64,000 nt of DNA from positions 47,124 to 111,123 of the forward strand of contig JAILSC010000016.1 in the NCBI GenBank assembly GCA_024697865.1. Direction: 5' to 3'. Under the pieces are notes generated by a model. It was not told the DNA's origin and made no database searches. It saw only the letters and a program-made list of their open reading frames with translations. The translations under genes were made by a program, and so were the position numbers. This document shows positions 3,001-26,228 of this stretch, one piece after another. The stretch is from Candidatus Saccharimonadota bacterium (GTDB lineage Bacteria; Patescibacteriota; Saccharimonadia; Saccharimonadales; Saccharimonadaceae). Within the stretch, counting starts at the first letter, position 1, and every line of letters starts with the position of its first letter.

Positions 3001-5097
3001 CAGATTCTCCGGATTCACTTGGACTGGTTGTGTCTGGTCTTGAGCCACTTCTCGCTCTGACTGCATTACTTCTGGTGTATTGCCGATTTCTTCGCCGGTT
3101 CTTACTTCTACGGTTGGGTTGTCTAGCGCTCTAGAATAAGCTCGCAGCATATCAAGTCTAGACATTCCGGTCGGGTCAATATCCATAGCTCTTAGAGCTT
3201 GGGCAAGTTGAGTCTCGCTCATAACTTGGTCACTGTGTTGTTCTAGCCATGCTTCTTGTTCTATTGGCGTAAGCTCACTAAATATTCTGCCGTCTAGCTC
3301 ATTTGAAGCGCTTTGAAGGGCGTTCTGCTCTTGTTCTTGGTTAGTTTGTCGTTGCTGAGTTAGGGTGGCCTCATTCGGCGTATTTTCGCCTTGTATGGCA
3401 TTAGCTTGATTCTCTTGGTTTATCACTTCGTCTACGCTTTGGCCACGCCAACCAGTGTTTTCGTTCTGATTCTGCTGTGTCAGTTCGGCTAGCCTTTGTT
3501 GTGCGTAGGTATTGCCCTGTTTAGCTTGTCTGGTAAGCGTGTTGACATCCTCAGAGCTCGGTCTTAACCCCAGATTATTCTCACGGAATGGGTTAATGTT
3601 AGTCTGAGCGGCTCCACCTTGTTCTATTACATTGGCCAGCTCAGCGTCTGATAGTCTTGTAATAGTTCCGTCTGGGTTAGCCTTCACCATATCGCCATTT
3701 TGGGTAGTTTGGACCGATTCGCCAGTGTCAGTAGTTATTTCGGTGTTTTGATTGCCTCTTATAGCGTTTTTAATGTTGCCAGCACCAGAGATTGCGCCAG
3801 AAACTAGGCCGCCCGTAATACCACCGAGTGCTGCTGCTTGACCCGTACGTCCCAGAGTGCCTTCGTCCCATTTGCCTTGATCTGATAATTCTTGGGCAAG
3901 GTTTTGGCCGGCTTCCTGAGCGGCTTCTTCTGCGCCAGTTTTTAGCAATTGTTTAGCAGTATTTTTTAGTGTGCTAACTCCTAAGCCTTTCACGGCTGCT
4001 TTAGTTATAGCTGGGGTTATACCACCAGAGAACATAGAGATTGGGATTATCGCCGCATCTGCCGCTGAACCTAACCTGTTCAAAGCACCATTTTCTTTCA
4101 CATTTACGGTTGCTGTGCCGTCACTGTTCTTTTCTAGCACATTCTTTGTACCATTTGGGTTACCAGCATCTTGCAATAGTCCAGGTAAGCGCATCGGCTC
4201 GCCTATGACGCTACCGGGTATATTTAATATAGCCCTTAGTATTTGTTTGCCAAAACTCTCGTCTTCGGTTTGCTCACCAAGTATAGCGTTACCTGCTGCC
4301 TGGGATAACTCATCGCCCGCCACTCCGAGTCCTTGGCCTAGTGTTATTGGCCTAGAACCGTTCCTGATTCTTTGCAGTATATCTTCATCACCCTTGACTT
4401 GGTTTTCTACCGTCTTCTCACCTAAATTATTAGAAAGTGATAGCTTGGGCTCTGATTGGCCGAGATTATTTTTAAACGCATCGTAGCTCAGCTTATTGAA
4501 TGCATTGCTCGGGAGTTTAGTCTCTCCCGACCTTAGACTATTGAGCAAGCTCTTGTTCTGGTTGATTTGATTTTGATAAGTGTTAGCCAGCCTATTAGTC
4601 TCAGTTTCGTTCATTTGGCGCTGTTTTTCAATAGCATCTTGTTGGGCTTTGGGCTGTAAAGCATTGATTTTGTTGCCCAGATCTAGGCTATTTTGGATGC
4701 TAGAGGCCATTTTAGCGCCAGCTGGACTGGTGCTAGAGATAGAATTTAATAGCTGTTGCTGTTTTTGCTGTCTAGCTTGCTGTTCTTGCGCCCTTCTTGC
4801 TTCTTCTTGCTGCTTTCTAGCCGCCTCTTCTTGACGTCTGCGCTCTTCTTCTTGTCTACGTTGCTCTTCTCTTTGGCGTATTTGCTCATTTATTTGTTGA
4901 GCCTGCGCCAGAGCATTCCGCATTGGGTTTTGGTTATTATTGGCGTTGTTATTCACGCTATTGACTGAGCTTACAGCGTTTGTGTTGCTTGCCCTTGTTG
5001 GTGTGGGGTTCAGGGTCCTCAAAGAAGTGATCAAGGGCGTATTTTCGTCTTTCTTCCTCTGGATTGAGAGCCCGGACCAATTCAATAAGTTAGCCAT
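1..5097 (-). CDS. Giant phage polyvalent/internal virion (ejection) protein, partial; ORF open at the left window edge (at least 1699 codons)
   Basis: Start ATG at 5097 preceded by GGAGG (GGAGGCTTAATCATG). Frame checked open at several points and at position 1. Q/E/R-rich coiled-coil N-terminus; RelA/SpoT-like segment; motif LLSGPRTHTGNAVSNLFQ typical of large phage internal proteins. The ORF track has no closed minus-strand ORF here, consistent with one ORF running off the edge. Confidence 0.8.
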   Translation of the reverse strand, partial: MANLLNWSGLSIQRKKDENTPLITSLRTLNPTPTRASNTNAVSSVNSVNNNANNNQNPMRNALAQAQQINEQIRQREEQRRQEEERRRQEEAARKQQEEARRAQEQQARQQKQQQLLNSISSTSPAGAKMASSIQNSLDLGNKINALQPKAQQDAIEKQRQMNETETNRLANTYQNQINQNKSLLNSLRSGETKLPSNAFNKLSYDAFKNNLGQSEPKLSLSNNLGEKTVENQVKGDEDILQRIRNGSRPITLGQGLGVAGDELSQAAGNAILGEQTEDESFGKQILRAILNIPGSVIGEPMRLPGLLQDAGNPNGTKNVLEKNSDGTATVNVKENGALNRLGSAADAAIIPISMFSGGITPAITKAAVKGLGVSTLKNTAKQLLKTGAEEAAQEAGQNLAQELSDQGKWDEGTLGRTGQAAALGGITGGLVSGAISGAGNIKNAIRGNQNTEITTDTGESVQTTQNGDMVKANPDGTITRLSDAELANVIEQGGAAQTNINPFRENNLGLRPSSEDVNTLTRQAKQGNTYAQQRLAELTQQNQNENTGWRGQSVDEVINQENQANAIQGENTPNEATLTQQRQTNQEQEQNALQSASNELDGRIFSELTPIEQEAWLEQHSDQVMSETQLAQALRAMDIDPTGMSRLDMLRAYSRALDNPTVEVRTGEEIGNTPEVMQSEREVAQDQTQPVQVNPENLAQEPAIPTRTDTTGANEGAVNASMRVPTVEELSVTPPEAVAGIVRTNTGYTAQDLIKQAEEQRDQFINDVREITIENGVTPNEEFFKTAVKNNVDRINQKIMEKNGKTPTDMLRSMILVKDPNAALPGILKSFEDRGYKIWNNDLTNRYTDGSAGYKDIAIKFTKGDGDKVVKEFQIMSPHMYEAKFELGGHKLYEEWRVKKDSAEAKEIEKIVKQMDKLYAWANKLDAAELNSSSDTSRPSLSALSMPNGKPVEVYPTMSSPSSTILTGVPSTIKNSGSLSNAPSNLVNIDNSPFTPIVAQNGENVNTSSSFARNTSANPNFSDQTRRALKNNPVGYNPVTNEERLARANEILGTKSTDEIDTYLRDNFFNAKDKDRNSGDVVLAGEYAKMLDAKGQYDRATEVINKMSEIATKQGQEIQALSVMFNRSPEGIANMAQTAIKKSGGNVDGKIRQQIVENTQAIGKIRGERATLAQENAAISEQIMNGQGDLKTLRKRQMEIAQAYRQNLDQEGRQFAQLTDTVSKNSPDNRSIFGAVWRASLLSGPRTHTGNAVSNLFQNTLNASADRIAAGLDWARAKATGTERQVVTSAGGRGKGTKRGLKAAGEVLKTGNNLWAGMDTMANKTNAWGQNGELEFKNKIANNMVAKPTNFVFRAMSAGDLPFRYAAFENAIRTEAKRQGVNQGLKGQALEDYINSRVATPDPELQAYGMRKGNEAVYDVDTKLSGIMNRIDKFIEGQDNKVIRSALRGTKTIIAPFIKVPSKVLSTAIDYSPLGSVKAIVNKIGTKGYTTAQFETDLAKSGLGTAGLVGLGYALSAAGLLTGGYPDSQDERNRWKAEGIEPNSIKIGDKYVSLNYLGPASMLMSMGSGVQQRQAKGEDALTIASGTIMDTLNTFMDQSYVQGLNSALQAITDSNRYGESYTNSLARGLVPNLLRQTATATDPMQRQVDDAGDAVVSGIPGLSQTLNAKVDTYGQEIKNKQTLPLGQMWDALKISNSR
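2078..2106 (+). promoter_or_regulatory. Near-consensus sigma70-type promoter for antisense gene: TTGACA-17 nt-TACAAT
   Basis: TTGACA at 2078-2083, TACAAT at 2101-2106, followed by AAAGGAG at 2114-2120 and ATG at 2129. Confidence 0.65.
2129..2341 (+). CDS. 70-aa unknown protein, wholly antisense to the giant phage ORF
   Basis: MLTKFEGAFDKLPLFFIVDGTPVKIVEEGEDIVGYTSTGFPFGILKALNEGREVSEEEFNSAASNLLAQA; SD AAAGGAG 8 nt upstream; strong promoter directly upstream. Confidence 0.6.
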   Translation: MLTKFEGAFDKLPLFFIVDGTPVKIVEEGEDIVGYTSTGFPFGILKALNEGREVSEEEFNSAASNLLAQA

Positions 5098-5099
5098 GA

Positions 5100-6194
5100 T
5101 TAAGCCTCCATGTTGTTACCATATGGGCTGTTGGTTTTCTTCTTGTTTAATCCTCTTAAAGCCGTCAGCAGAGGGGAAGTTCCGGCTGTTGATTCGGCCA
5201 CTGCCGTCGTTAGGTTAGTATTGCCAGTGTCATAACTTGCTAGATCAGGTGAGTTATAGACTGCGGTTATACCGGTATAGTTCGGTTTACTGAACTCTCC
5301 TAGTCTATTAACTTTGTTGCGATAGTCAGCGAGACGGCTATAAGCGTCGCTGATATCGCCGCCAAAATCACCGCCGTACTGGGCACGATTGCCGAGTGCT
5401 GTGACCAAGTCGGTGAGCAAAGACTGTCCTTTTTCGTAGATTTCTTGCTTTTTCGATTTGACTTGCCCATTGTACCAGTCCTCCAATTTCTTTTTATCGT
5501 TCTCGAATTGATTTTGATAGTTGCCCCAGTCAGTGTCCAGATTAGACTGGTTCTGGGCGTAGGTTTGGCCAGCATTGTTGTACTCTTGGTTAGCTTGCTT
5601 AGTAACCATCCCTGGCGCTTCATATCGTGCTACAGAGCCTCCGCCAGCCCCCATAGCGCCTAAAATTCTTAGCAAGCCACGTAAACCGGAAGAAGCACGA
5701 TTTGTGATGATATTTCGGTTAGTCTGTAGTTGCTGTTGGTTCTGCTTTGTAGAATTGTCGTATTCATTTTTATTAGCATTGTATTGAGATTGTTGCTCAT
5801 TCTTGTAAGTGTCGTATTCACTTTTGACGCCAGCTAGGGCGTTGTCAATTTGCTTATCTATAGTGCCTAAATTGTCTTTGATATCTGATATTTGCCGGTC
5901 ATAGATGTTTATCATATTGCGGTCGGGGGCGCTAGTACTGCCACTTCCCGTGCCAGTAGTATAGTTATATTCGTTAGTGACAGTCGGGTTATTGGCCGGC
6001 GCATTCGGATCTGCGATTTGTTTGTTAGCATCTAAGCCTTGGCGAGATGCAACATTCTGAGTGGCGTAAGTCCCTTTACCAAGGTTCATGACCCCATAAC
6101 CTTCGACATTGGCCCAGATATTGCCATCGCTACCAGACCACCAACGGTAGTCTAGACCTTTTGCATCGAAAGGGTTTAAATTTGTATTTGCCAT
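5100..6194 (-). CDS. Phage internal virion/structural protein (coiled-coil, podophage-like)
   Basis: 364 aa; N/Q-rich coiled coil with a Gly-rich segment (RASSGLRGLLRILGAMGAGGGS); directly upstream of the giant protein; SD TTAGGAG. Confidence 0.6.
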   Translation of the reverse strand: MANTNLNPFDAKGLDYRWWSGSDGNIWANVEGYGVMNLGKGTYATQNVASRQGLDANKQIADPNAPANNPTVTNEYNYTTGTGSGSTSAPDRNMINIYDRQISDIKDNLGTIDKQIDNALAGVKSEYDTYKNEQQSQYNANKNEYDNSTKQNQQQLQTNRNIITNRASSGLRGLLRILGAMGAGGGSVARYEAPGMVTKQANQEYNNAGQTYAQNQSNLDTDWGNYQNQFENDKKKLEDWYNGQVKSKKQEIYEKGQSLLTDLVTALGNRAQYGGDFGGDISDAYSRLADYRNKVNRLGEFSKPNYTGITAVYNSPDLASYDTGNTNLTTAVAESTAGTSPLLTALRGLNKKKTNSPYGNNMEA

Positions 6195-6235
6195 AATAAG
6201 AACTCCTAAGTTGTTATTATTCAGTAAGTCTTAGC

Positions 6236-6256
6236 GTTCTCGTCTTTAAAGTAACC
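6236..6256 (-). promoter_or_regulatory. Phage leader hairpin copy B (conserved 14-nt loop ACTTTAAAGACGAG)
   Basis: Minus strand: CTTAGGTT-ACTTTAAAGACGAG-AAC(G)CTAAG; core GTT/AAC stem given here. Confidence 0.55.
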
Positions 6257-6309
6257 TAAGCGGTCTTAGTTCACTGCTCGCTGCCTGTGCTTGTTTGGGC
6301 TTCCGCAAC

Positions 6310-6331
6310 GCCTCCCGTCTTTAAGGTAGAC
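6310..6331 (-). promoter_or_regulatory. Phage leader hairpin copy A (loop ACCTTAAAGACGGG)
   Basis: Minus strand: GTCT-ACCTTAAAGACGGG-AGGC, just downstream of promoter P1. Confidence 0.5.
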
Positions 6332-6353
6332 TTCAGTGAACCTCAACAATTTC

Positions 6354-6383
6354 ATTATAATCACCCATCCAACCACGCCGCAA
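6354..6383 (-). promoter_or_regulatory. Phage promoter P1: TTGCGG-CGTGGTTGGATGGGTGAT-TATAAT
   Basis: -35/-10 with 18-bp spacer; spacer shared with P2 and P3; upstream of the virion protein leader. Confidence 0.6.
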
Positions 6384-6411
6384 TGATTGACAAATATGTT
6401 ATAATATGGGT

Positions 6412-6666
6412 ATGGAAGTAGTGTTTGGAGTTATATGCATGTTGAGCGGCGCCATCATAGGTATTGGCGTGGCCATTTTAATAGGTAAAAAATGGGGCGG
6501 ATCTAAAAAAATCCCCGATTGGGTACCGGAATTGATTGGAGCTATCCTCGCATTCGGTGGTCTATTTGGTGGGGCCTGGTTTGCCGACGCCTATAAGCAG
6601 TCTATAATAGACCAAACCTATCAGCAAGTGGTTGACTCTGGTTATTGTAACGATCTCAACGATTGA
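6412..6666 (+). CDS. Small two-TM membrane protein encoded against the phage late genes (ATG at 6412, alternative 6406)
   Basis: MEVVFGVICMLSGAIIGIGVAILIGKKWGGSKK..; extended -10 TGTTATAAT at 6397-6405 immediately upstream. Confidence 0.6.
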   Translation: MEVVFGVICMLSGAIIGIGVAILIGKKWGGSKKIPDWVPELIGAILAFGGLFGGAWFADAYKQSIIDQTYQQVVDSGYCNDLND

Positions 6667-6925
6667 TTTTTGTTTCAATTTTTACTATAGACTTCTCAAT
6701 TTCTCCGAATCTCTTGGCATATCCGTTGTGCTCGTCTATTTTTGCTTCCTGTCGTGCCTGATTTTCTTCGATCCTACCCAAGCGATCATCAATTTTTTGT
6801 TCACGTTTAGCCTCTTTGATTTCTTGTTCCTTAGACTTTTTACTTGTTATCATGTAGTTGCCCATCACGGCAAAAATTCCAGTTATTGTTGGCGCTATGA
6901 TAAAGGCTAATATGTCGCTATTCAT
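6656..6925 (-). CDS. Holin-like/phage small membrane protein with coiled-coil tail
   Basis: N-terminal TM (ILAFIIAPTITGIFAVMGNYMI) then charged coiled coil; next to the endolysin; SD AGGAG. Confidence 0.6.
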   Translation of the reverse strand: MNSDILAFIIAPTITGIFAVMGNYMITSKKSKEQEIKEAKREQKIDDRLGRIEENQARQEAKIDEHNGYAKRFGEIEKSIVKIETKINR

Positions 6926-6944
6926 TGTGTGTCTCCTGAAAGAA

Positions 6945-6975
6945 GTAGCGCCTGGCCCGATTCCCCAAGCGCTAC
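6945..6975 (-). promoter_or_regulatory. Stem-loop upstream of the holin-like gene
   Basis: Minus strand GTAGCGCTTGG-ggaatcggg-CCAGGCGCTAC, 11 bp with one G-U, followed by TTCTTTC and the SD. Confidence 0.4.
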
Positions 6976-7108
6976 GAAGTGTGTGTTTAAACGGCTTTTT
7001 TGGTTAATTTTTTGTGTTGCGGTATTGCGTGTGCGATTTGTTAAAGGGGTATGTTGAAAAATTATGCAAGATTTTAAAATGTCCAAACCGGGCCACCGCA
7101 TATCGCTG

Positions 7109-8113
7109 CTACTCCGACCTGTATTCAATGGTGTCGCCAGCGAATAAGCCAACACCGTTAGTGGAAACCCAACCGTCATAGACAGTTAAAAAACGTTGAA
7201 AAGTAGTTGAATACCAATGTTGAGCGTAGTCATTCATAGCTTCGCCCCACTTTACTTCACCCGTGCAAGCTAACATAATCTTGCCGAGTGTATCGCCAGC
7301 TTGAACGTCCCAGACTTTACACTGGTCCGCTGGTTCCGGTTCCGGTGCTGGCTTAATATAGATATTTGGTCTAAATGCTCCGATAAAATCACGGGTAGAT
7401 AGGTTAATGATATTGCCGGCAGCTCCACCACCGGGGCAAGGAGCACCACCTTGATTCTGACCAAGTAGAGTAAAGTATCCATTGTTATACTCACCCATTG
7501 CCATACCAATATGCCCCCATTGGCCAGTAGAATAGACTGCAATATCGCCAGCTTGAATCTGGGTAGGGTCCCAAATCATCGTAAATTGGTCGCCAGCGTT
7601 CTGTTGCCAACACCCCTCGGCAATAGTTCCTTTAGCGGCACCAGTCCCACAAGTGTAGAGCGTGTGGCCAGTGTAGTTGATGAAAAAAGCTGCCATACTG
7701 TCCCAGCACTGCGCCCCGTAATAGCCGTCCACATCTATACATTGGCCTAGCGTTTGATTGGCAAAAGCTTGCGGGCTTGAGATGTCTAGTGTCGGCACAT
7801 AAGCACCTTGGCCACATTCTTCACCCTCTGGGCAGGATTTGTTGTTTACTTCGGTTACTGGCCCACCAGATTCCACAGCTTCCACTGTTGGGATTTCACC
7901 GGTTTCAATCGCTCCTTGGCCGGATTCTTCGGTTATAACTGCCGGCTCTTGCTCGTCGGCATACTCAATTACTGCTGGTCTGATCGTGATGTCTGTTTTA
8001 ATTTCGGTAGACCCGTCTTGGTTGTGTATAATCACAACAGACCCAACGGCCCCGAGCGCTACAAGTAGTGCCGTAGCGATTGTAGCTATGATTTTGTTCC
8101 GTTTAAGTTTCAT
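7109..8113 (-). CDS. Endolysin: N-terminal signal/anchor, CHAP domain, LysM-like C-terminus
   Basis: Start MKLKRNKIIATIATALLVALGAVGSVVI preceded by AAGGAGG; CHAP pattern (AQCWD..., GDIAVYSTGQWGHIGMAMG); C-terminal WDVQAGDTLGKIM. Confidence 0.75.
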   Translation of the reverse strand: MKLKRNKIIATIATALLVALGAVGSVVIIHNQDGSTEIKTDITIRPAVIEYADEQEPAVITEESGQGAIETGEIPTVEAVESGGPVTEVNNKSCPEGEECGQGAYVPTLDISSPQAFANQTLGQCIDVDGYYGAQCWDSMAAFFINYTGHTLYTCGTGAAKGTIAEGCWQQNAGDQFTMIWDPTQIQAGDIAVYSTGQWGHIGMAMGEYNNGYFTLLGQNQGGAPCPGGGAAGNIINLSTRDFIGAFRPNIYIKPAPEPEPADQCKVWDVQAGDTLGKIMLACTGEVKWGEAMNDYAQHWYSTTFQRFLTVYDGWVSTNGVGLFAGDTIEYRSE

Positions 8114-8144
8114 TTGCCTCCTTCTGGGATTATTTGTCACTTCC

Positions 8145-8174
8145 ATAATAACCACTCATCAAGGCACGGCGCAA
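8145..8174 (-). promoter_or_regulatory. Phage promoter P2: TTGCGC-CGTGCCTTGATGAGTGGT-TATTAT (endolysin)
   Basis: Same architecture and spacer as P1 and P3; 5' leader carries AGAAGGAGG before MKLKRNK. Confidence 0.6.
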
Positions 8175-8177
8175 CCA

Positions 8178-8258
8178 AAAGCCAGCTCAACGGCTGGCTC
8201 TTGGACTATAAAATAGATCATACATAGCAGGGCTTGGTGGGCATAGCGCCCTACTATA
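8178..8258 (-). ncRNA. Candidate phage ncRNA between P3 and a terminator-like hairpin
   Basis: Begins just after P3; internal hairpin ATAGTAGGGC...GCCCTGCTAT; ends AGCCAGC-cgttga-GCTGGCT-TTT. Confidence 0.4.
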
Positions 8259-8264
8259 GTTCAT

Positions 8265-8294
8265 ATAGTAACAACCCATCCACCCATAGTGCAA
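8265..8294 (-). promoter_or_regulatory. Phage promoter P3: TTGCAC-TATGGGTGGATGGGTTGT-TACTAT
   Basis: Third instance of the shared promoter/spacer motif. Confidence 0.55.
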
Positions 8295-8325
8295 CACCAA
8301 AATGTCAGTTGTGTTATAATAGATG

Positions 8326-8370
8326 AATAGGCTAGTTCCGCATCTGCGGTTGTCCACTAGCCTATTTTTT
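8326..8370 (+). ncRNA. Candidate very short plus-strand transcript: extended -10 TGTTATAAT (8312-8320) followed at once by an intrinsic terminator
   Basis: AATAGGCTAG ... CTAGCCTATT 10-bp stem enclosing CCGC-ATCT-GCGG, then TTTTTT. Confidence 0.45.
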
Positions 8371-8541
8371 GTTTTTCCAGCGAGCAGCTGCGGCAGCTTG
8401 TGCACGTTTTTTGCGCTCTTCCTTTGGTATATTATTGACGATATTAGCCCCCTTGCGTCTATCTTCAATCATCTTATCGTACAATAAGGCTTTTTTGTAG
8501 ATATCTTCAAAATATTTCTTGTCTACTGTTATATCTGCCAT
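8362..8541 (-). CDS. Small basic phage protein (59 aa), unlisted in the ORF track
   Basis: MADITVDKKYFEDIYKKALLYDKMIEDRRKGANIVNNIPKEERKKRAQ..RWKNKK; SD AGGAAAT. Confidence 0.5.
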   Translation of the reverse strand: MADITVDKKYFEDIYKKALLYDKMIEDRRKGANIVNNIPKEERKKRAQAAAAARWKNKK

Positions 8542-8564
8542 TTATTTCCTTTCTGGTGTATATT

Positions 8565-8984
8565 TTACCCGTATAGTATTTTTTTGGCTAGTTCATATTT
8601 AGCAATTCGTCTTTTATTCAGGCCGCTAGATCTACTTGGGCTAGTATTATGGGCTAGATCGGCTTTTTTTACTGCTAGCGCCATTGGATCAGCCTTAATT
8701 CTTTGTAGATATTCCTCATAGGACATTTTTGGGGGCTTGGTGAGGATCACCACTACTTCTACTAAGTATTCTGGTATCCCCTTTTCTATAAGCTCTCCGG
8801 CCGTTGTCTCGGTGTCTTCTATTACATCGTGGAGAAGTGCAACGGTTTTCAGATCTAAATTGTCTAATTGGGCCGCTACGGCAAGCGGGTGGAGAATATA
8901 TGGGTTGCCCTGTTTGTCTATCTGCCCGGAGTGGGCAGATAGAGCTATTTGCAGAGCGGTTTCGAAAACTTTGTTCATGTTCAT
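8565..8984 (-). CDS. HD-domain small alarmone hydrolase (RelA/SpoT hydrolase/Mesh1-like)
   Basis: ALQIALSAHSGQIDKQGNPYILHPLAVAAQL...VALLHDVIEDTETTAGEL...VKKADLAHNTSPSR: signature of the SpoT HD hydrolase family. Confidence 0.85.
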   Translation of the reverse strand: MNMNKVFETALQIALSAHSGQIDKQGNPYILHPLAVAAQLDNLDLKTVALLHDVIEDTETTAGELIEKGIPEYLVEVVVILTKPPKMSYEEYLQRIKADPMALAVKKADLAHNTSPSRSSGLNKRRIAKYELAKKILYG

Positions 8985-8997
8985 GGTTGCGCTCCTT

Positions 8998-9603
8998 TTA
9001 AACTACTCTTAGTCCATAGTTATCATAAATGCCCCTATCGAAATAATCGGTCATAATGTCGCTGTGGTCGCTGTTGTATGCGTTCACCACTTGCTTACAA
9101 GCCTTAAACACTTGCTTGCCAAAGTCCGACAAAATCTCTTCTTTGTCTATATGATAGCTGCTTATGTTCACGTCACCTTTAATGCTAGCGAGCACTGCGT
9201 CCGCCGTTTCGTTTTCTATCTGTCGCTGTTCCTCGTCTGGTCTTGAGCGGTAGTCTTCCCAATAAATGCCAAACGTCGCTCCGACCCAGTTCCGGCGCCC
9301 GTGGCGCATGCTGTCAATTACTCGCCCCCTGATTTCCTCGTCTGTTGCTATAATATCGCTGTGCCTGTCTGCTTTTACCGTAATATAGAGGCTGGTGGTA
9401 TAACCGCCCCGCCCTTTTCGGACAGAGATGCCTGATTTTTTCAAAGGTCGCTCGCCCTCGCATAACACTTTTTGCAGGTCTTGCCTTATTGCTTGCGTCA
9501 ATTCTTTTCCATATAGATTTTGATTCTGGTTCCCAGTCCAGCCGTCATAGGGGGCTGTGCCTGTTGCTTTCACACCAAATTTTTTTAAATAAGTTGTGTT
9601 CAT
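8998..9603 (-). CDS. LPD29-like (large polyvalent protein-associated domain) phage protein
   Basis: GKELTQAIRQDLQKVL...ISVRKGRGGYTTSLYITVKA... and NSDHSDIMTDYFDRGIYDNYGLRVV resemble LPD29-type sequences from memory. Confidence 0.45.
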   Translation of the reverse strand: MNTTYLKKFGVKATGTAPYDGWTGNQNQNLYGKELTQAIRQDLQKVLCEGERPLKKSGISVRKGRGGYTTSLYITVKADRHSDIIATDEEIRGRVIDSMRHGRRNWVGATFGIYWEDYRSRPDEEQRQIENETADAVLASIKGDVNISSYHIDKEEILSDFGKQVFKACKQVVNAYNSDHSDIMTDYFDRGIYDNYGLRVV

Positions 9604-9642
9604 CTTATTGTCCTTTCGATGATTATTATTTATTACACCCCT

Positions 9643-9671
9643 ATTTTAGCACGCTAGCGAGCATATGTCAA
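9643..9671 (-). promoter_or_regulatory. Sigma70-type promoter TTGACA-17-TAAAAT for the LPD29/HD-hydrolase unit
   Basis: Minus strand TTGACATATGCTCGCTAGCGTGCTAAAAT. Confidence 0.6.
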
Positions 9672-9709
9672 TAGTTTTTTTGGACTTTTTTTAAAAGTTT
9701 TCCACAACC

Positions 9710-9830
9710 AAAAAACCACCACCTAGCTCCACGTTATCTTGAGTTCAGTGGTGGCCGAGTCATCGGTGCAACTGCGTAGCCATAGTCTATATTACTAACG
9801 GTCCACACACCGAGTTTTCTCTCAGCTGTA
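9710..9830 (-). ncRNA. Candidate ~120-nt structured phage ncRNA with own promoter (TGGTATAAT at 9836-9844) and terminator
   Basis: Terminator stem CCACCAC...GTGGTGG (9716-9754) followed by TTTTTT; TCGGTG/CACCGA and TAGT/ACTA internal pairings; no plausible ORF. Confidence 0.5.
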
Positions 9831-9845
9831 ATTCTATTATACCAC

Positions 9846-9877
9846 AAAAAACCGCCTCGCAGTGAGAACGGTTTTTT
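9846..9877. terminator. Bidirectional intrinsic terminator after the capsid gene
   Basis: AAAAAACCG-cctcgcagtgagaa-CGGTTTTTT. Confidence 0.75.
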
Positions 9878-9937
9878 GTCGTCTAGATTGACGGTTGTTA
9901 TTACTGTTGTACTTTCATTGTATCATATTTCTATGAA

Positions 9938-10783
9938 TTAGGCGCTTGGAGTGGTGCCAGTGATAGAAGCAACAGCTTTCTTCTTAGCAGCTAATACAAA
10001 CGTATCATAGATGAATCGGCCAGTGAGTACCGCACCGTCAACAAGCTCAGAATCCTCTCGGATATCGGTCTTGTGGATTTGGCGAGCACCAAGCACGGCT
10101 TTCTTCTGCCAGATAACGGCTAGAGTGTTAGCTGGGAAGTAGGTGGAAGGGACCTTGATCACGGCCATTCCGTCTAATTCACCAACAAAACCACGAGGAA
10201 CTAGCTTGTCATTGTATCCGTTAGCATATACACCAGTAGTGATATCCTTCTTGATTTCGTTGTAGAAGGCAGGAGTGACGAACATCGCACGATCGTTGAT
10301 TGGAGCCTTGGCTTCATCCAAGTAAGCGCTAGCTTTCAACACAGCTGCGTAAGCGTTGCCACTACCAGCAGTGTAAGAAACAGCTTGGTTGTTGGTTGAA
10401 GCAGCGGTCGCTGCGGTTGCGATTCGGTCGGTGTCGATTTCAGGAATTACCTGTTCGTCCATTTGAGCTCGCAATACTTGACCAGCTTTCTTAGCCAAAG
10501 CACCTTGCAAGTAGTTGCCACGATCAATAGCGATCTTGAAACACTTGTCATTTGCCAATTGGTAAGTAGCTACAGTGTCTTGCAATTCAGCGTTACCACC
10601 AAAGCGGTCGCCAGTTGCACTACGGTTGTAGTTAGAAGTTGCTACGGTTGTTGGGGTGTAAACATTGATTGTCTGAACTCCGTCGAAGTCATAATCACGG
10701 TTTACGAATTTATCAGTATAAGAGCCATGAGCGAATGCTACGTCCATTTTGCTCGAATACTTTTCTGCTAAATGTACAGTCAT
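9938..10783 (-). CDS. Major capsid protein
   Basis: 281 aa; capsid-like composition and position after portal and scaffold; ...NDRAMFVTPAFYNEIKKD...LDGMAVIKVPSTYFPANTLAVIWQKKAVLGARQI...; strong RBS. Confidence 0.75.
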   Translation of the reverse strand: MTVHLAEKYSSKMDVAFAHGSYTDKFVNRDYDFDGVQTINVYTPTTVATSNYNRSATGDRFGGNAELQDTVATYQLANDKCFKIAIDRGNYLQGALAKKAGQVLRAQMDEQVIPEIDTDRIATAATAASTNNQAVSYTAGSGNAYAAVLKASAYLDEAKAPINDRAMFVTPAFYNEIKKDITTGVYANGYNDKLVPRGFVGELDGMAVIKVPSTYFPANTLAVIWQKKAVLGARQIHKTDIREDSELVDGAVLTGRFIYDTFVLAAKKKAVASITGTTPSA

Positions 10784-10823
10784 TTTTCTGCATTCCTTTC
10801 TTTTGGGTTAGTTGATGAAGCAA

Positions 10824-11699
10824 CTAATCACCTAAGAAACCAGCAAGGAATTCGTCGTCCTCTTCTTTTCGGGACGGGGCTTTAGTAGAGCTGCCAACAT
10901 CTGCGTTATTTAGCATATCAAGCGCAGCCTTACGGCCAGAAGTCTTACCACCAGCTTTGCCGGACGCTTCAGCTTTGGCTATCGTAGAATACAGCTTATA
11001 TGGCGAAACTCGTGAACCAATTACTTGGCCAGTCTTTTCGTCGGTTATGAGCGAATTCTTCATCAGCTCGTCGGCTGCCATAGTCAATTCGGCATTGTAT
11101 TGGTCAGATTCTGGATCGAAAATCGGGAAGTCTCTCACTACTTGGTTGGCTTCACTCGATATTCTAGTAACATTGTCGGCCACTCGCTCTACGTATTCTG
11201 CGAACTCTCTTTGTTGTTCCATGGCGTCTAGACGCTGGCTCAAGCGAAGGTTCTCAGCTTCTGCTCGGGTATAATAGTCCCCAGTTTGTGGGTTTATTTG
11301 CCCGATTAGAGATTCTACCGTCGGGATATCCTGGGCCGTCTTCAAGTCATACTTCTTTCGGCTCAGCTCGGCGATTTCGTCTCGTAGAGCATTGCGCTCT
11401 GCTACCTTGTCTCTGATTTCTGTGTTAAGTTGCTGTTTTCGTGCATCTGCACGGCTTGACGTTTCTTCTGACTCAGTAGATTCAGATTTCTCTTCCTTCT
11501 GAGCTTTTGGCTCCTCTTTAGGTTGAGATTCCTTTTCAGGAACTTCCTTTTCGGAAGTATCTGTCTCGCCCGTAAACCCGAGAACGAACTCATCGCCATC
11601 AGAATTGTCGGTGCCGGTATTGGTTTCTACGGTTGGCGCTTCCGTTGTAGTGGTTTCGGCTTCCACTGGTCCTTTTACGCCGGCGGCTTCTTCTGCCAT
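10824..11699 (-). CDS. Scaffold-like phage protein
   Basis: Acidic, coiled-coil, T/E-rich N-terminus; located between portal and capsid. Confidence 0.6.
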   Translation of the reverse strand: MAEEAAGVKGPVEAETTTTEAPTVETNTGTDNSDGDEFVLGFTGETDTSEKEVPEKESQPKEEPKAQKEEKSESTESEETSSRADARKQQLNTEIRDKVAERNALRDEIAELSRKKYDLKTAQDIPTVESLIGQINPQTGDYYTRAEAENLRLSQRLDAMEQQREFAEYVERVADNVTRISSEANQVVRDFPIFDPESDQYNAELTMAADELMKNSLITDEKTGQVIGSRVSPYKLYSTIAKAEASGKAGGKTSGRKAALDMLNNADVGSSTKAPSRKEEDDEFLAGFLGD

Positions 11700-11760
11700 A
11701 ATTTATCTCCTTTTACTTTTTACGACTGTTAGGCGTCGATTCCTTTGGGGCGAGATAGCC

Positions 11761-11803
11761 CCTGTTGTGCTCCCCACGAAGGGATAAAGAGGAGCACGAC
11801 AGG
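11761..11803. promoter_or_regulatory. Strong intergenic stem-loop upstream of the scaffold gene
   Basis: CCTGTTGTGCTCC / GGAGCACGACAGG, 13 bp with one wobble/mismatch; no U-tract. Confidence 0.5.
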
Positions 11804-11810
11804 AATTACC

Positions 11811-12113
11811 TCATAGTTTCTTGGCATCGAACATTTTGACCTTATTTTTAATAACACTTAGCTCACGTCTTAGGACTGTACATACTTCCTTATTGACGGC
11901 CACTTCTCGCATAAACTCTTCAGGATTACTCGAGTTTTTGATTGAGTCAATTTTCTCTAGCTTTTCGATATCCTTCTCTAGGCGCTCCATGACGGCCGTG
12001 ATTAGCGGCCGTTCATGTTCGTAAGCGTTCTTGTCTTGCTGGACTTTTTTGCGTTGTTTCTTAGTAGGTTTTATCAGCCTTTCAGTGCTGACTTGGTAGA
12101 AATTATCTTCCAT
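11811..12113 (-). CDS. Small coiled-coil phage protein
   Basis: 100 aa, overlaps the portal stop; MEDNFYQVSTERLIKPTKKQRKKVQQDK... Confidence 0.55.
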   Translation of the reverse strand: MEDNFYQVSTERLIKPTKKQRKKVQQDKNAYEHERPLITAVMERLEKDIEKLEKIDSIKNSSNPEEFMREVAVNKEVCTVLRRELSVIKNKVKMFDAKKL

Positions 12114-14010
12114 TTACTAGCCTTTCTAGTCGTTCTACGACCTGTTCTGGTGCAGTTCCGTTCTGCACTGCGTCTATAGCCTGCACAATAACGTCGTCTG
12201 GCACGCCTCTAGCCCGCAGAAGGGCAACTACTTCCTGTACTGACGTTCCGGTAGGTTCTTGGACTTGCTCAGCCTCTACGGAACCATTATTCACGGATCC
12301 TGGCGTCATTTGCTGTTCTTGTTGCGTTTCTTCATTCATTGCCAGCTGTTCAGTATCTACAGTTAGGTCTTCTGGGTCTTCTACGCCACTATTGACGACG
12401 ATTTTATTCCAACAAGCGGCCAATTTTTCTGGTGGTACAATTTGCGATAGGGAAGGGGTAGCTGCAATTTGTAACAACAGTTGCAAAGCTTCTAATTGTT
12501 CTGACTGACCATTTAATTTCGAGGTGGACGCATCAACACGGAATCTCAGAGCTGGGGTAGCCGTAGAATAGTCAATTCTGATTTTATTATCGTCGCTGAC
12601 GAACCCTTCCGGAAGTTTGCCCTCTTCCTCTAAAGCACGTAACTTGTCTGCGGTCTTTTGGTCTAGTTGTAGGATTTCTACGCCCTCACGCTCGGCAAAG
12701 TAGACGTTGATAGCGGTCTCGGCCCAATTTTCAAAGAATGACTCGAAGTTCTTGCGGATGTAGTTGTCTTCTGCCGACATAATCTCTTTTTGCTGTTTCA
12801 GAGCAGTCGGGGTCTTACCAAAGCCAGGATTGCCTACTTCAGCGCTAACTGTAGTATCACCACCGGTGTTGAATAGGGAATAAAGCTGGGTTTTGTTTAA
12901 TGCATAAATATCCGGATAGTTGGCTATAGCCGAAGTATCTACTGATAGCGGCACAATCTTGTTATTAGCGTCGCTACCCATTTCAATTAGTCCATTCGCT
13001 TCATAGATAGCTTGGGTAGTATCTACGTTGCCGTATACCATAACTGGTGGTGCTAGTCCTAGAGCTCGGTTGAACTTGTAAGCTCTCATATCGGCGTCAA
13101 TCATGTTCTGCATACCACCAACGATTTCAATAATTGAACGGCCAAATGGATTAGAGCCGTCTACGTCAGAGTAGAAGTAGTCTACTGGTGGTAAGCCACG
13201 TGGATCTTTATTTTTCTTGCGTCGGACGATAGTGCCGTCACTGCCTTCACTAGCTGGGCACCCAGTAAAGAAGATCGCCCCTACCCCCTTCTGGAAACCA
13301 ATTACTACCTCAATACCGGTGGTGTTGATACCAAGTCTCTCTTCTTCTCGGGTCTTGGCCTGGTGATCTTTTGAAGTTATCTGGGTCTTGACTTCTTTGA
13401 GCGCTGCGACATCCCAAGTTGATTCATATTTCTCGCCGTTCTTCTTAGCTTCTTTGGCCATTGCCTTGTCGGCCTCTAGAATCTGGTCAATAGTCTCTGG
13501 TTGCCACCATGAACGCATAAAGAAGTAATCACAATCATAGAAGGACTTTTTGCCGGGTTGGAAGAATATGTCACCCCAGTAAACTAGGGTAGCATCGGTG
13601 GTGAACTCGTTGCCATGTTTCAAAAATGGGGTGTATACAGCCTGACCTCCAACTATTTGGCCATTTTCAACAGTTGACCAGAATTTCTGGATCAAGTCAT
13701 AGTCAGCGTTAGCGTACGGTATAATTTTGTTTAATAAAATGAACTCTGCTATGATTGGCAACCAGTCATTATCGTCATCTGACGTTACAATACCGGTTGG
13801 CAGTTGTTGAATAACCCGCTTCGGGGTTTTGCGTATTAGTGCTGCAGTAGTACCGTCTGAGACTCGTGCATATTCCGGCGGAGTGCCAGCTTCTGTTTCA
13901 TTTCTAGCGATGCGAACATACTCGTCAAATGGTTCCGTCCATTGTTCGGTCCAGTCTACAGCTTTGTTGTATTTTTTCCAAAAGTTTGTTTCAGTAAGAA
14001 ATTGATTCAC
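12103..14010 (-). CDS. Portal protein
   Basis: 635 aa; follows terminase; ...GQIVGGQAVYTPFLKHG..., ...VDYFYSDVDGSNPFGRSIIEIVGGMQNMIDADMRAYKFNRAL..., typical podophage portal features. Confidence 0.75.
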   Translation of the reverse strand: MNQFLTETNFWKKYNKAVDWTEQWTEPFDEYVRIARNETEAGTPPEYARVSDGTTAALIRKTPKRVIQQLPTGIVTSDDDNDWLPIIAEFILLNKIIPYANADYDLIQKFWSTVENGQIVGGQAVYTPFLKHGNEFTTDATLVYWGDIFFQPGKKSFYDCDYFFMRSWWQPETIDQILEADKAMAKEAKKNGEKYESTWDVAALKEVKTQITSKDHQAKTREEERLGINTTGIEVVIGFQKGVGAIFFTGCPASEGSDGTIVRRKKNKDPRGLPPVDYFYSDVDGSNPFGRSIIEIVGGMQNMIDADMRAYKFNRALGLAPPVMVYGNVDTTQAIYEANGLIEMGSDANNKIVPLSVDTSAIANYPDIYALNKTQLYSLFNTGGDTTVSAEVGNPGFGKTPTALKQQKEIMSAEDNYIRKNFESFFENWAETAINVYFAEREGVEILQLDQKTADKLRALEEEGKLPEGFVSDDNKIRIDYSTATPALRFRVDASTSKLNGQSEQLEALQLLLQIAATPSLSQIVPPEKLAACWNKIVVNSGVEDPEDLTVDTEQLAMNEETQQEQQMTPGSVNNGSVEAEQVQEPTGTSVQEVVALLRARGVPDDVIVQAIDAVQNGTAPEQVVERLERLVNGR

Positions 14011-14032
14011 TCATTCGTGCCTACTTCCCGTC

Positions 14033-14056
14033 GGTTTCTCGTCTTTAAAGTAAACC
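14033..14056 (-). promoter_or_regulatory. Phage leader hairpin copy C (loop ACTTTAAAGACGAG)
   Basis: Minus strand GGTTT-ACTTTAAAGACGAG-AAACC at the predicted 5' end of the portal transcript. Confidence 0.55.
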
Positions 14057-14068
14057 AAGCTTAATTTC

Positions 14069-14098
14069 ATTATATTCCGTATTCCGCCCCAGTGTCAA
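14069..14098 (-). promoter_or_regulatory. Phage promoter P4: TTGACA-18-TATAAT (portal operon)
   Basis: TTGACACTGGGGCGGAATACGGAATATAAT, then GAAATT identical to the post -10 sequence of P1. Confidence 0.6.
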
Positions 14099-14403: not shown

Positions 14404-15036
14404 CTAGTATATTTTGTTTAATGTCCCCTCGTTTTGTTTCACTCTAAGATTAGAAGAAGAAGGTGCCTGCTCTGATTGATATAATTGCCAAGCAATAGCA
14501 AGCGACATTACGGCGTCATCATGGCAGTTTGCGGCAGCTTCAGCTCTCCCACGCTTGTTAATTATAAATTTACCCAACTCATCAATAGTTGTCTTATCGT
14601 AAAGCCGAATCAGTTTATTGTCTATAGCCTGTTTTAAGTCGCCGAGCATTTGAGGACGAGTTTGTACGTTAGTATCCCATCCAATAGCGTCTGTCAATTG
14701 TTCTCCTTCAATAGTCCCAAGTTTACGACGCTGAAATATGCGATAATGGCCATTGCGGTTGAGAATTTGTAGATTAGACAGCGCCGAAACGCCGCCCATT
14801 TGCCGCTCGAAAGCTACAACAGGCTCTATACCAGTGGTACTATAAAGCCACTCTAAAGCTTCATGGATAATTGGCGTCATCTCAGCTGCAACGCATTTCT
14901 TTTCAAACACCAGCGGAACATCTATTTTCGTCTTAGACAAGAATTGGCCAAAATTAGCATCTAAGCCACCTTGGGCGCAATCTACGGCCACCACAAAGAA
15001 TTCGCCACGATCTATCTCTCTATAAAGCCGAAACAT
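14404..15036 (-). CDS. terL: Terminase large subunit, C-terminal nuclease part
   Basis: REIDRGEFFVVAVDCAQGGLDANFGQFL... and ...CHDDAVMSLAIAWQ: RNase H-like terminase nuclease motifs. Confidence 0.75.
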   Translation of the reverse strand: MFRLYREIDRGEFFVVAVDCAQGGLDANFGQFLSKTKIDVPLVFEKKCVAAEMTPIIHEALEWLYSTTGIEPVVAFERQMGGVSALSNLQILNRNGHYRIFQRRKLGTIEGEQLTDAIGWDTNVQTRPQMLGDLKQAIDNKLIRLYDKTTIDELGKFIINKRGRAEAAANCHDDAVMSLAIAWQLYQSEQAPSSSNLRVKQNEGTLNKIY

Positions 15037-16030
15037 ACTCTGCCTCCCGAATAGGTGTTTTTATCTCCGAGTTGTAGTGTACCAACGCATCATCACGAAA
15101 ATATGGATCTCCGCCTAATAAAAATGCCTCTGTGTCAGTAGTTGGGAACTCTCGCATTTCGAGTTTTGAGGTAAGCCCGTTCGTTTTTTTGAAGTGCCAG
15201 TATGCCTGATCTTTCGTCACATGGGGAATTTGCTTGTAATAGTCAGGCATTTCCCAGTTGATCGGGGCCTTTTCTTGATATGCTCCGAATAGGTGCCACG
15301 CCAGAAATCGACTTTTGAATTGTGAGCGGCCTTCTTTGCCAGCTTGGTACTCTTCGGCGAAAAAGTTATCTGCCACGTTCCCAGTAGTTTCTCTAAATAT
15401 CTTACCTACACCATCAGAAACTTGTTTTTCTGCCCCCACAACCAGCTCACGTGCGTCAAGTATCTCAGTATTATTGTAGAAAGCCACCTCAGACCAGTGG
15501 ATGTTTTGACGAGTACCACCACGGCCGGAAACTTTTGCCCCAGCAGTTAGACAATCGTACACGGAACCGTTTTGCCCTTCAATAATAGTGCCACCAACAT
15601 CCTTCTTCAAAAACTTAGAGCGAAGTGTCGGTAGTATTTTGCGATCATTGGGGTTTTCGTAGTGTAACTGTCCCTTGCTATAAGCAACAAGTAAATACGA
15701 ATCGATAAACTGGTTTACACGCTTGAATAGTTCGTCGGTATCTTTTTGGCGATACGAATAAACGGAAGAGTTGGCCAAATTTGTTACTCCAATCTCGCCA
15801 AGGATAAAGTCTACACAGAAAATAGCATCAATCAGAGAAGAAAAACCGAAACGGCGTGACTTTAAGATATTCTCTCTAATTGGCGCTAAACCTTGTCCAT
15901 ATTCCTTCAAAATAAGATCGTAGTAAAAACTTTGCACGTCATTCAGCTTCATCGGCACAATTTCGCCGTTGATTGTTGTGATGGTAAAATAATTTTCAAT
16001 AAAGCCTTTGTAGTCGATAGTCTTACTCAT
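15020..16030 (-). CDS. terL: Terminase large subunit, N-terminal ATPase part
   Basis: ENILKSRRFGFSSLIDAIFCVD (Walker A-like), IHWSEVAFY (Walker B-like); start MSKTID with SD GAGGT. Confidence 0.75.
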   Translation of the reverse strand: MSKTIDYKGFIENYFTITTINGEIVPMKLNDVQSFYYDLILKEYGQGLAPIRENILKSRRFGFSSLIDAIFCVDFILGEIGVTNLANSSVYSYRQKDTDELFKRVNQFIDSYLLVAYSKGQLHYENPNDRKILPTLRSKFLKKDVGGTIIEGQNGSVYDCLTAGAKVSGRGGTRQNIHWSEVAFYNNTEILDARELVVGAEKQVSDGVGKIFRETTGNVADNFFAEEYQAGKEGRSQFKSRFLAWHLFGAYQEKAPINWEMPDYYKQIPHVTKDQAYWHFKKTNGLTSKLEMREFPTTDTEAFLLGGDPYFRDDALVHYNSEIKTPIREAEYVSAL

Positions 16031-16460
16031 CTGATACCTCACTGTCTACTACATACTCGCCGCCAAAATGCGCAGAGTCTATGCTTAAATTGAGGTTGAA
16101 CCCACCATCTGTTTTGTCACGGACTTTGCCATAGGCCTCCTCTTTTATCGCTTTATATGCGGTTGGATCTCCAGTCTCTAGCACCCTGTTTATCACACTG
16201 ACATCCATCGCAGTCTCAATAGTGCGTTTCCCGCCTTCAACCCCTAGTTTGTTTAATTTTTCCATAATTTCTGGGTTTTTTACGGCTAGATCCAAAATCA
16301 TCAACACCTGCTCTTGTCGGTCTCTCTTTTCTCGGCGAGCTTTGCCACTTGCAATACCACCTTTTTGTGTTATTGCTCGGAGTTCGCTCGGAGTTCGCTC
16401 GGAGTTCGGCACGAGGTTCTTGGCGTTGTTTCTTGGCTTAAGATTTTGCTCATTTGCCAT
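16023..16460 (-). CDS. Terminase small subunit candidate
   Basis: Directly upstream of and overlapping terL; basic helical N-terminus (TPSELRAITQKGGIASGKARREKRDR). Confidence 0.5.
   Translation of the reverse strand: MANEQNLKPRNNAKNLVPNSERTPSELRAITQKGGIASGKARREKRDRQEQVLMILDLAVKNPEIMEKLNKLGVEGGKRTIETAMDVSVINRVLETGDPTAYKAIKEEAYGKVRDKTDGGFNLNLSIDSAHFGGEYVVDSEVSDE
16375..16407. repeat. Three perfect tandem 11-bp repeats inside the candidate terS
   Basis: GCTCGGAGTTC x3. Confidence 0.9.
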
Positions 16461-17061: not shown

Positions 17062-18156
17062 CTAGTCTACGATTCTGCAGAGCCCGGCCCTGCATAAATG
17101 TCTTGCCCGTGCTAGAGTGACGTCGAACGGTGGGGAACAACTGTGCATCAGTTCTTGTCTCTCTAGATCAAAATAATCTTTGATTGGGCGAATTGTGATT
17201 TTCTTCATTCTTGGTTTGTACCTGCTAGGATCATCGACCAGTATTTTATCCCAGCTATCGTTCGGCGGTGTATAAGTAAACTCTTGTTTTGGTTCGAATA
17301 TCTTTTCGGCTACTTCGTCTACATTTCCACAGTCCCAGTCTAATATCAGCTCGGCCTGCTTAGGTATTTTGAGTTCTTTAGTCACGCTTAATGGTGTCCT
17401 AACGACTCTAACCCCATAGCCTAAAGCTTCGTTGATTGAATAGCAATAGGTTTCCATATTGTTACTTATTTGTACTAGCCAGGCGCTGTCAGCGATATAT
17501 GGCCTGACGTCTACTCTTGGCTTCATTATGGCCACATTCGGAGATTCTATTTTGCTCGGCATACTGTTGGTAAATATGGCCCAAAAATAGTGGCGGCCAG
17601 TCTTTTCGCAATAACGATCCAGAGCGTCAATTAGTTTTAGTGTCCTATCTCCTCCCTTTGTTCTGTCTTCTAACCTACAAGCTGAGACAAGTCGCACCAC
17701 TTTGTCTGGCTTCTCTAGAGTCAGTGGGTTGTAGCTATATTCCACTGGCTTGTCTACATTCTGCAATTCTTCCTGCTCGATTATTTTAGCCTTAGCATAT
17801 TTACTGACCCCCATTATCTTTTGGATCTTAGGGTGGTCAATCGGTGGTTTATAACCCAGCTCTTGGTAGATCGCATGACACACAAAAATATATTCGTCAG
17901 CTTCTACTTGTTCTATAGCATCAACATTGAAGTTGAAAAATGCTTTTTTGGCGTAGTATTTCACGCCCAGCTCTCTTTTTACGCATCTTACATACCTTCT
18001 GAGCCTGATCAGCTGTTCATAGTCGCATTGGTCATACATTACCGTCAAGTCATATTTGTGATATTTTTTGGCTAGCTCATATAAGAATTGCTCCGTGCCA
18101 CCTATGCTATTGATGAACCGGAAGTAGAATAGGTTAGAGTAGCACTCTTTTTTCAT
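17062..18156 (-). CDS. GT-B type glycosyltransferase (phage-encoded)
   Basis: NSIGGTEQFLYELAKKY...; RLVSACRLEDRTKGGDRTLKLIDAL...; AWLVQISNNMETYCYSINEALGYGVRVVRTPLSV. Confidence 0.65.
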   Translation of the reverse strand: MKKECYSNLFYFRFINSIGGTEQFLYELAKKYHKYDLTVMYDQCDYEQLIRLRRYVRCVKRELGVKYYAKKAFFNFNVDAIEQVEADEYIFVCHAIYQELGYKPPIDHPKIQKIMGVSKYAKAKIIEQEELQNVDKPVEYSYNPLTLEKPDKVVRLVSACRLEDRTKGGDRTLKLIDALDRYCEKTGRHYFWAIFTNSMPSKIESPNVAIMKPRVDVRPYIADSAWLVQISNNMETYCYSINEALGYGVRVVRTPLSVTKELKIPKQAELILDWDCGNVDEVAEKIFEPKQEFTYTPPNDSWDKILVDDPSRYKPRMKKITIRPIKDYFDLERQELMHSCSPPFDVTLARARHLCRAGLCRIVD

Positions 18157-19731: not shown

Positions 19732-19889
19732 TCTTCACCTCCTATCCCATATTTCTTAATAAACTTCTTTGCGTGTTTCTCGCATAAATATAATGGATTT
19801 TCCCAATCATCCTTTAGACTGATTCGTATTTTCCCGAGATAATGCTTAGCGACTTTTTTGCAGCCTTTGTGCGAACATTCTGGCATCAT
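19728..19889 (-). CDS. 53-aa putative Zn-binding phage protein (below ORF-track cutoff)
   Basis: MMPECSHKGCKKVAKHYLGKIRISLKDDWENPLYLCEKHAKKFIKKYGIGGEE; stop overlaps next ATG. Confidence 0.5.
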   Translation of the reverse strand: MMPECSHKGCKKVAKHYLGKIRISLKDDWENPLYLCEKHAKKFIKKYGIGGEE

Positions 19890-26138: not shown

Positions 26139-26228
26139 TGGTGCGCGCGACTGGACTTGAACCAGCACAGCCTGAAAGCGGCCACTACCACCTCAAGGTA
26201 GCGTGTCTACCAATTCCACCACGCGCGC
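26139..26228 (-). tRNA. tRNA-Leu(GAG), CCA encoded
   Basis: GCGCGCGTGGTGGAATTGGTAGACACGCTACCTTGAGGTGGTAGTGGCC...GGTTCAAGTCC...CGCGCGCACCA; anticodon loop TTGAGGT; long variable arm. Confidence 0.93.

Follow-up and report, generated by a model that had tools for sequence, protein, structure and literature searches.

A probable bistable RNA switch in two late-transcript leaders of Saccharibacteria phages

The 64,000-nucleotide (nt) window analysed here, positions 47,124 to 111,123 of contig JAILSC010000016.1 from a Candidatus Saccharimonadota bacterium, carries part of a prophage, which extends over ~38.9-70.7 kilobases (kb) in contig positions and therefore lies only partly inside the window. 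Two of its late transcripts, encoding a portal protein and a 364-amino-acid (aa) helical protein, have small hairpins in their 5′ leaders. We consider it probable that this element is a cis-acting, two-state RNA switch, in which the hairpin, held by a factor, is the ON state, and the pairing of one hairpin arm with the start of the downstream gene is the OFF state. The states are assigned in this way because the second fold hides the start codon or the Shine-Dalgarno sequence.

An earlier sequence-only reading had placed three copies of the hairpin on the minus strand of the window, and all three are present:

6310-6331, minus strand: hairpin A, GUCU-A-CCU-UAAAGAC-GGG-AGGC; 36.0 bits with the covariance model described below; counterparts in L038 and L039
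6230-6260, minus strand: hairpin B, CUUAG-GUU-A-CUU-UAAAGAC-GAG-AAC-G-CUAAG; 34.9 bits with the same model; counterparts in L013, L038, L039 and L057
14033-14056, minus strand: hairpin C, the putative ON hairpin of the portal leader, GGUUU-A-CUU-UAAAGAC-GAG-AAACC; 39.7 bits; supported by covariation

These copies are the only exact matches to ACYTTAAAGACGRG in the 709,535-base-pair (bp) host genome, where the reversed control pattern has zero matches; a near match at 22708, with 2 mismatches, was rejected as a fourth copy, being inside a coding sequence. The element had been described as a near-invariant 14-nt loop on changing stems. The changing, paired stems hold, but the "loop" is composite: UAAAGAC (7 nt) is the true loop, the helix that carries it has 3 bp and reads CUU/GAG in B and C and CCU/GGG in A, and on the 5′ side an unpaired A is bulged out below this helix. 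The two sites that set copy A apart from B and C face each other as a pair, so that the difference amounts to one compensatory change, C-G for U-A.

About nine related Saccharibacteria phages have homologous hairpins upstream of these two genes. The same hairpin lies 5′ of the portal gene in L004, L005, L006, L007, L016 and L017, and a form with a 10-11-nt loop takes this place in the sister clade L018, L019 and L127; the distance to the portal start is 15-23 nt. Upstream of the 364-aa gene the hairpin occurs in L013, L038, L039 and L057, with two copies in L038 and L039, as in the window. The 5′ bulged A is present in all aligned copies, and the consensus across relatives adds a helix of 2-3 bp, with CU/AG, CC/GG and UC/GA covarying, and the 7-nt loop YAARNAC. 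The sequence-only reading had proposed a covariance-model search of related phages and of the rest of the prophage. The model, built from 12 copies of the 7-nt-loop hairpin, gives 31-40 bits for the window copies and homologous leaders and 21.8 bits for L057, and no site above 17 bits elsewhere in the host genome; in the genomes searched nothing else convincing was found outside these leaders, and the element is restricted to one phage group. The 10-11-nt-loop form, which is beyond the reach of the model, was located through the genes.

In the whole window the sole match to Rfam 15 is a tRNA at 26142-26228, and focused searches of the element with E values up to 10 return only sub-threshold eukaryotic families. 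A wider IMG/VR scan for promoter plus motif yielded 33 stretches, among which, besides L012 (the contig of L004) and L091 (a further match in the contig of L007), the best, L092, was judged a chance match; it lies upstream of a tail-sheath-like gene and was rejected, as the hairpin does not form. The hairpin motif was not found at the more distant portal genes L121/L122 (27% identity), L128 (47%) and L027. Separately, L128 (portal start ~2772) and L027 (portal start ~1495) have their own stems predicted over the start codons, and hiding of the portal start may therefore be a wider theme among Saccharibacteria phages. Upstream of the 364-aa homologue in L040 (reverse strand) and L132, the outer stem is seemingly kept and the loop is a purine-rich GGAGAAAGAAAYCC complementary to the Shine-Dalgarno region; both were left out of all pairing tests.

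Selection for an RNA structure where these late phage transcripts begin, as had been proposed, is now strongly supported by the homologous leaders, by compensation at every counted pair and by the promoter directly upstream. The initial covariation count used the first 12 hairpins alone, and the later one 14 distinct stems. In these 14 hand-trimmed stems, counted without the 3′-side bulged G of the B-type hairpins, 96% of the cells of the ON helix are standard pairs, two-sided changes occur at 7/7 counted pairs, and 26 cells carry double changes (8.0 in shuffles). We also used a tree-based null, in which the two arms evolved independently on the portal gene tree from a fully paired ancestor, at rates equal to the observed divergence; the observed 96% pairing and 11 double cells were matched jointly in 0 of 2000 simulations. 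The covariation that the sequence-only reading had anticipated in homologous phages is thus present. When the partner strand is slid by 1-3 columns the signal is lost, for the ON and the OFF helix alike.

In both kinds of leader, an arm of the hairpin can pair with the start codon or the Shine-Dalgarno sequence of the gene downstream, which points to a two-state translational switch. In the window, the strands involved are:

14048-14058, minus strand: left arm of C (UUGGUUUACUU), a strand of the OFF helix, from folds and from pairing and covariation counts
14002-14012, minus strand: portal start region (GAGUGAAUCAA, GUG start at 14010), complementary to the left arm of C, from the fold and from covariation across portal leaders
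6230-6241, minus strand: right arm of B (GAGAAC-G-CUAAG), which in the OFF state would pair with the Shine-Dalgarno region, from the fold of the B region and from motif-to-ribosome-binding-site pairing
6198-6210, minus strand: CUUAG-GA-GUUCUU, covering the Shine-Dalgarno region (AGGAG, 6207-6203) with its spacer and able to pair with the right arm of B, from the same fold and pairing

For the portal leaders, the OFF helix joins the hairpin's left arm to the GUG or AUG start region over 7-12 bp, as UUGGUUUACUU with GAGUGAAUCAA in the window, UUGGUUUACUUU with AAAGUGAACCAA in L017 and GGUUCAUCC with GGAUGAACC in L018. In the leaders of the 364-aa gene it is usually the right arm that pairs, with the Shine-Dalgarno sequence or the spacer (GAGAAAAC with GUUUUCUC in L038, GAGAAUC with GAUUCUU in L039); in L013 the left arm is used, UAGGUUAC with GUAACUUA. 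Pairing of the motif with the ribosome-binding site is above the shuffled mean in 14/14 leaders, with individual p values of 0.001-0.08. Across nine distinct portal leaders, 86% of the cells of the OFF helix are paired, 7 of the 12 pairs show two-sided changes, and there are 13 double cells compared with 5.9 in shuffles. Under the tree-based null, 87% pairing together with 11 double cells was matched in 0/2000 simulations, and pairing alone was reached once.

Several changes in the left arm are compensated on both sides. From L018 to L127 the arm changes from GGUUC to GAUUC (G to A), its ON partner from GGGCC to GGGUC (C to U), and its OFF partner in the start region from GGAUGAACC to GGAUGAAUC (C to U, AAC to AAU). 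Between group I and L018/L127, the left arm goes from C to U, a change seen in group II, and both partners follow, the ON arm with G to A and the start codon with GUG to AUG. Because the left arm fits two partners through this three-way compensation, the pattern is hard to explain without two alternating folds. Sequence comparison shows both the hairpin and the alternative helix, each with its own covariation, and shows that they are mutually exclusive.

Energy-model predictions at 37 °C were used for all folds. The OFF state is the predicted minimum-energy fold in L004, L007, L016, L017, L018, L019 and L013. Folded as prefixes that stop after the motif, 11 of the 14 leaders form the hairpin, and 9 of these 11 lose it when the start region is added. 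The ON energy computed for L004 belongs to another local hairpin and was excluded. Sequestration of the start codon in the alternative stem is strong in six group I and II portal leaders, and marginal in the window, L005 and L006. When 354 phage genes are ranked by accessibility, the portal start codons of P555, P558, P385, P502 and P127 are among the ~3% least accessible, and those of P556 and P557 are not hidden. Given these differences in start accessibility, the switch may be tuned differently in different phages.

Several observations weigh against a switch of this kind. In the portal leader of the window the OFF fold is predicted at −11.8 and the ON fold at −12.7 kcal/mol, and L005 and L006 likewise have the two states within ~1 kcal/mol of each other. 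The portal start codon of the window is at the 16th percentile of accessibility in the 354-gene ranking, the start is not hidden in the folding ensembles of L005 and L006, and even in the ON fold of the window the GUG is still paired with a nearby CAC. The OFF folds of L038 and L057 combine several helices, the promoter and loop of L016 have decayed, and the hairpin of L004, whose start is almost fully hidden, carries a U-U mismatch. Moreover, the pair counts come from few, related sequences with stems trimmed by hand.

From these data, we infer that the switch acts on translation, with the hairpin as its ON state, and that its loop is recognised by an RNA-binding factor acting in trans. The hairpin would form first, as RNA polymerase leaves the promoter, leaving the ribosome-binding site unpaired to it, and early translation would therefore be possible. 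In the OFF state, the left arm in the portal leader would pair with the start codon, and usually the right arm in the 364-aa leader with the Shine-Dalgarno sequence or spacer, in both cases blocking 30S binding. Through its contacts with the conserved bulge and loop, a bound factor would keep the leader in the ON state, with the start released. The bulged A and the loop are conserved though not needed for pairing, which suggests a bound factor. The 100-aa protein encoded just after the portal gene (11811-12113), which is conserved in the phages carrying the element, is a candidate binder, by inference only. Neither the capsid protein nor the terminase is a likely binder, given how strongly they diverge, or escape detection, among phages with the same hairpin: the capsid protein is replaced by a type of 25-30% identity in phages retaining the hairpin, with 25-26% in P558/P135, and the 340-aa terminase has no match in P556/P557. 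The capsid (9938-10783, minus strand) and terminase (15020-16042, minus strand) genes have been exchanged for highly divergent ones among phages that are alike in other respects (P558/P135/P385; P556/P557).

The genes, promoters and outer helix associated with the element in the window are:

12103-14010, minus strand: portal protein gene, 635 aa, GUG start, with hairpin C in its leader; weak match to Pfam SU10_portal
5100-6194, minus strand: gene for the 364-aa protein of the A/B transcript, with hairpins A and B in its leader; conserved with the element
5097 to 1 and beyond the window edge, minus strand: gene for a 2063-aa protein, after the 364-aa gene; conserved with the element
14069-14098, minus strand: predicted promoter of the portal transcript, TTGACA (14098-14093), 18 nt, TATAAT (14074-14069); 12/12 consensus positions
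6354-6383, minus strand: predicted promoter of the A/B transcript, TTGCGG-18-TATAAT (TATAAT at 6359-6354); read directly, under the threshold of the promoter scanner
6269-6341, minus strand: outer helix GUUCACUG/CAGUGAAC around hairpin A, from the predicted fold

The portal gene product is 22-25% identical to Microbacterium phage proteins annotated as portal protein, and its relatives are found in Candidatus Saccharibacteria genomes and IMG/VR contigs. The 364-aa protein is predicted, in a structure model of low confidence, to form a long helical hairpin. In the phages checked the 2063-aa gene follows it; the first 1699 aa of that protein (1-5097, minus strand, the part inside the window) match no Pfam family above the cut-off and no PHROGs family. 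Elsewhere in the prophage, the late genes include one for a 139-aa HD-domain protein (8565-8984, minus strand; Pfam HD_4, E 6e-07, above the cut-off), which could act on alarmone-type nucleotides, and the early/middle region encodes a Glycos_transf_2 protein (19886-20509, minus strand) and another protein of 364 aa (17062-18156, minus strand) with a glycosyltransferase-like look and no Pfam match.

Transcription starts were placed from the predicted promoters, at about 14062 and 6347 on the minus strand. The sequence-only reading had put promoters before A and C, both running TATAATGAAATT into the leader. That run is present in both; the promoter before C is a perfect consensus of the sigma-70 type, with TTGACA kept in related group I portal leaders, but the one before A has a weak −35 element (TTGCGG) and was not called by the scanner. 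Hairpin C begins at about +7 of the predicted portal transcript. The suggested outer helix of GTTCACTG and CAGTGAAC enclosing hairpin A does appear in the predicted fold; the helix enclosing the counterpart of A in L038 differs from it. Upstream of the A/B leader, which is the second of the two, there is a terminator-like hairpin followed by a new promoter.

We regard it as unlikely that the leaders are ligand-free kinetic timers, in which the transient hairpin admits ribosomes briefly, until the stabler OFF fold shuts off the start and so caps the amount of portal and 364-aa protein made. The portal is required in few copies, which would suit such a device, and in predicted folds of nine leaders the hairpin indeed comes first and is replaced upon transcription of the start. 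The MS2 maturation leader provides a precedent (PMC6582335). However, a timer does not call for a bulged A and a YAARNAC loop conserved beyond the needs of pairing, and the OFF fold is not more stable in the window or in L005/L006.

Still less probable is a repressor operator, at which a virion protein (the portal, 100-aa or 364-aa protein) would bind the bulged-A hairpin and block initiation, as the coat proteins of MS2 and PP7 do. The bulged A 2-3 pairs below a conserved loop, the short distance to the portal start and the conserved 100-aa protein agree with it, but the covarying OFF helix is left unexplained, and the replaced capsid and unmatched terminase described above speak against these as the binder. 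The sequence-only reading had offered protein-binding operators as one analogy, which comes closer to our findings than its other but missed the complementarity of the arm to the start codon or Shine-Dalgarno region.

That other analogy, the put antiterminator RNAs of HK022 acting on RNA polymerase from the nascent transcript, found no support, and we think it very improbable. It is true that the portal hairpin is located in roughly the first 10 nt of its transcript and that hairpins A and B belong to a structured leader behind a promoter, and a structured 5′ end of a phage transcript is what they share with put. Such a role would nevertheless leave the pairing with the start codon or Shine-Dalgarno region unexplained; the element is on only two transcripts per phage, no Rfam family matches, and between the units stand a terminator-like hairpin and a fresh promoter.

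The chance that the motif belongs to a short open reading frame translated upstream of the gene is just as slight. One frame (VYFKDEK/VYLKDGR) is open through the motif in 17/18 leaders and ends at the portal start in several, but about half of the leaders have no start codon in this frame within 40 nt, a stop codon interrupts the frame in L057, substitutions show no preference for third codon positions, and the spacing to the gene is not kept in frame. The similar short peptides read from this frame in most leaders (VYFKDEK, VYLKDGR, GYFKDEN; window 6331-6230 and 14070-14010, minus strand) are judged a by-product of the RNA motif. A DNA operator for a transcription regulator is barely conceivable: an inverted repeat directly downstream of a promoter would fit, but G-U pairs, a bulged A and an asymmetric loop are features of RNA rather than of DNA palindromes, and a DNA site would give no reason for compensation with a coding start region. 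Both readings were set aside.

Returning to the two-state switch, we tentatively suggest, at slightly less than an even chance, that it represents an undescribed class, a factor-responsive bistable translational switch of Candidate Phyla Radiation phages, in which one arm is shared by a recognition hairpin and a start-codon lock and a single trans-acting factor coordinates the dose of the portal and of the 364-aa/giant protein. The literature seen in part on Saccharibacteria phages consists of genomic surveys with no mention of such an element, and within these sources and Rfam no earlier description or matching family was found. The element appears to control virion components needed in limited numbers. 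As a small, defined RNA with a clear two-state model, it lends itself to tests in E. coli or in vitro although its hosts are difficult to grow, and it gives a starting point in the search for these phages' RNA-binding regulator.

Among known systems, metabolite riboswitches combine a conserved aptamer for a ligand with an expression platform; the leaders here have two exclusive folds, and their conserved core is only ~24 nt and confined to one phage group. The MS2 and PP7 coat operators have a bulged A under a short helix and a conserved loop near a start codon, and a 5′-side bulged A below a short helix and loop recurs in all aligned copies here. In contrast, those operators are simple repressor sites without an alternative covarying fold, their loops differ in sequence and size, and the exchange of the capsid protein in P558/P135 with the hairpin kept argues against a capsid binder.

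The closest working analogues are probably phage Mu mom/Com, lambda cIII and the MS2 maturation leader; we claim membership in none, and no sequence relation to any of these leaders was seen. Lambda cIII, which is not known to have the bulged-A consensus hairpin, differs in being an early regulatory gene and one gene only. It resembles the proposed switch in that its mRNA can adopt a second conformation that prevents translation, a block lifted when a factor, RNase III, binds (PMC2777011). The MS2 maturation leader is a kinetic trap: close to its 5′ end a small hairpin forms transiently and holds back the stable fold that keeps ribosomes out (PMC6582335), much as a transient hairpin is predicted here ahead of the blocking fold; MS2 is an RNA phage, and no conserved recognition loop is described there. 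In Mu, a hairpin recognised through its loop by Com adjoins a translation inhibition structure that holds the GUG start of a late phage gene (PMC6483171). No Com-like zinc-finger family was found among the phage proteins of the window that were scanned, which took in only some of the small open reading frames. The likeness to mom is that of a hairpin beside an alternative stem sequestering the start codon, as predicted folds and covariation indicate for the portal leaders; the sequences and genes differ, and whereas the bound hairpin and the inhibition stem of Mu are separate, here a single arm appears to be shared by both.

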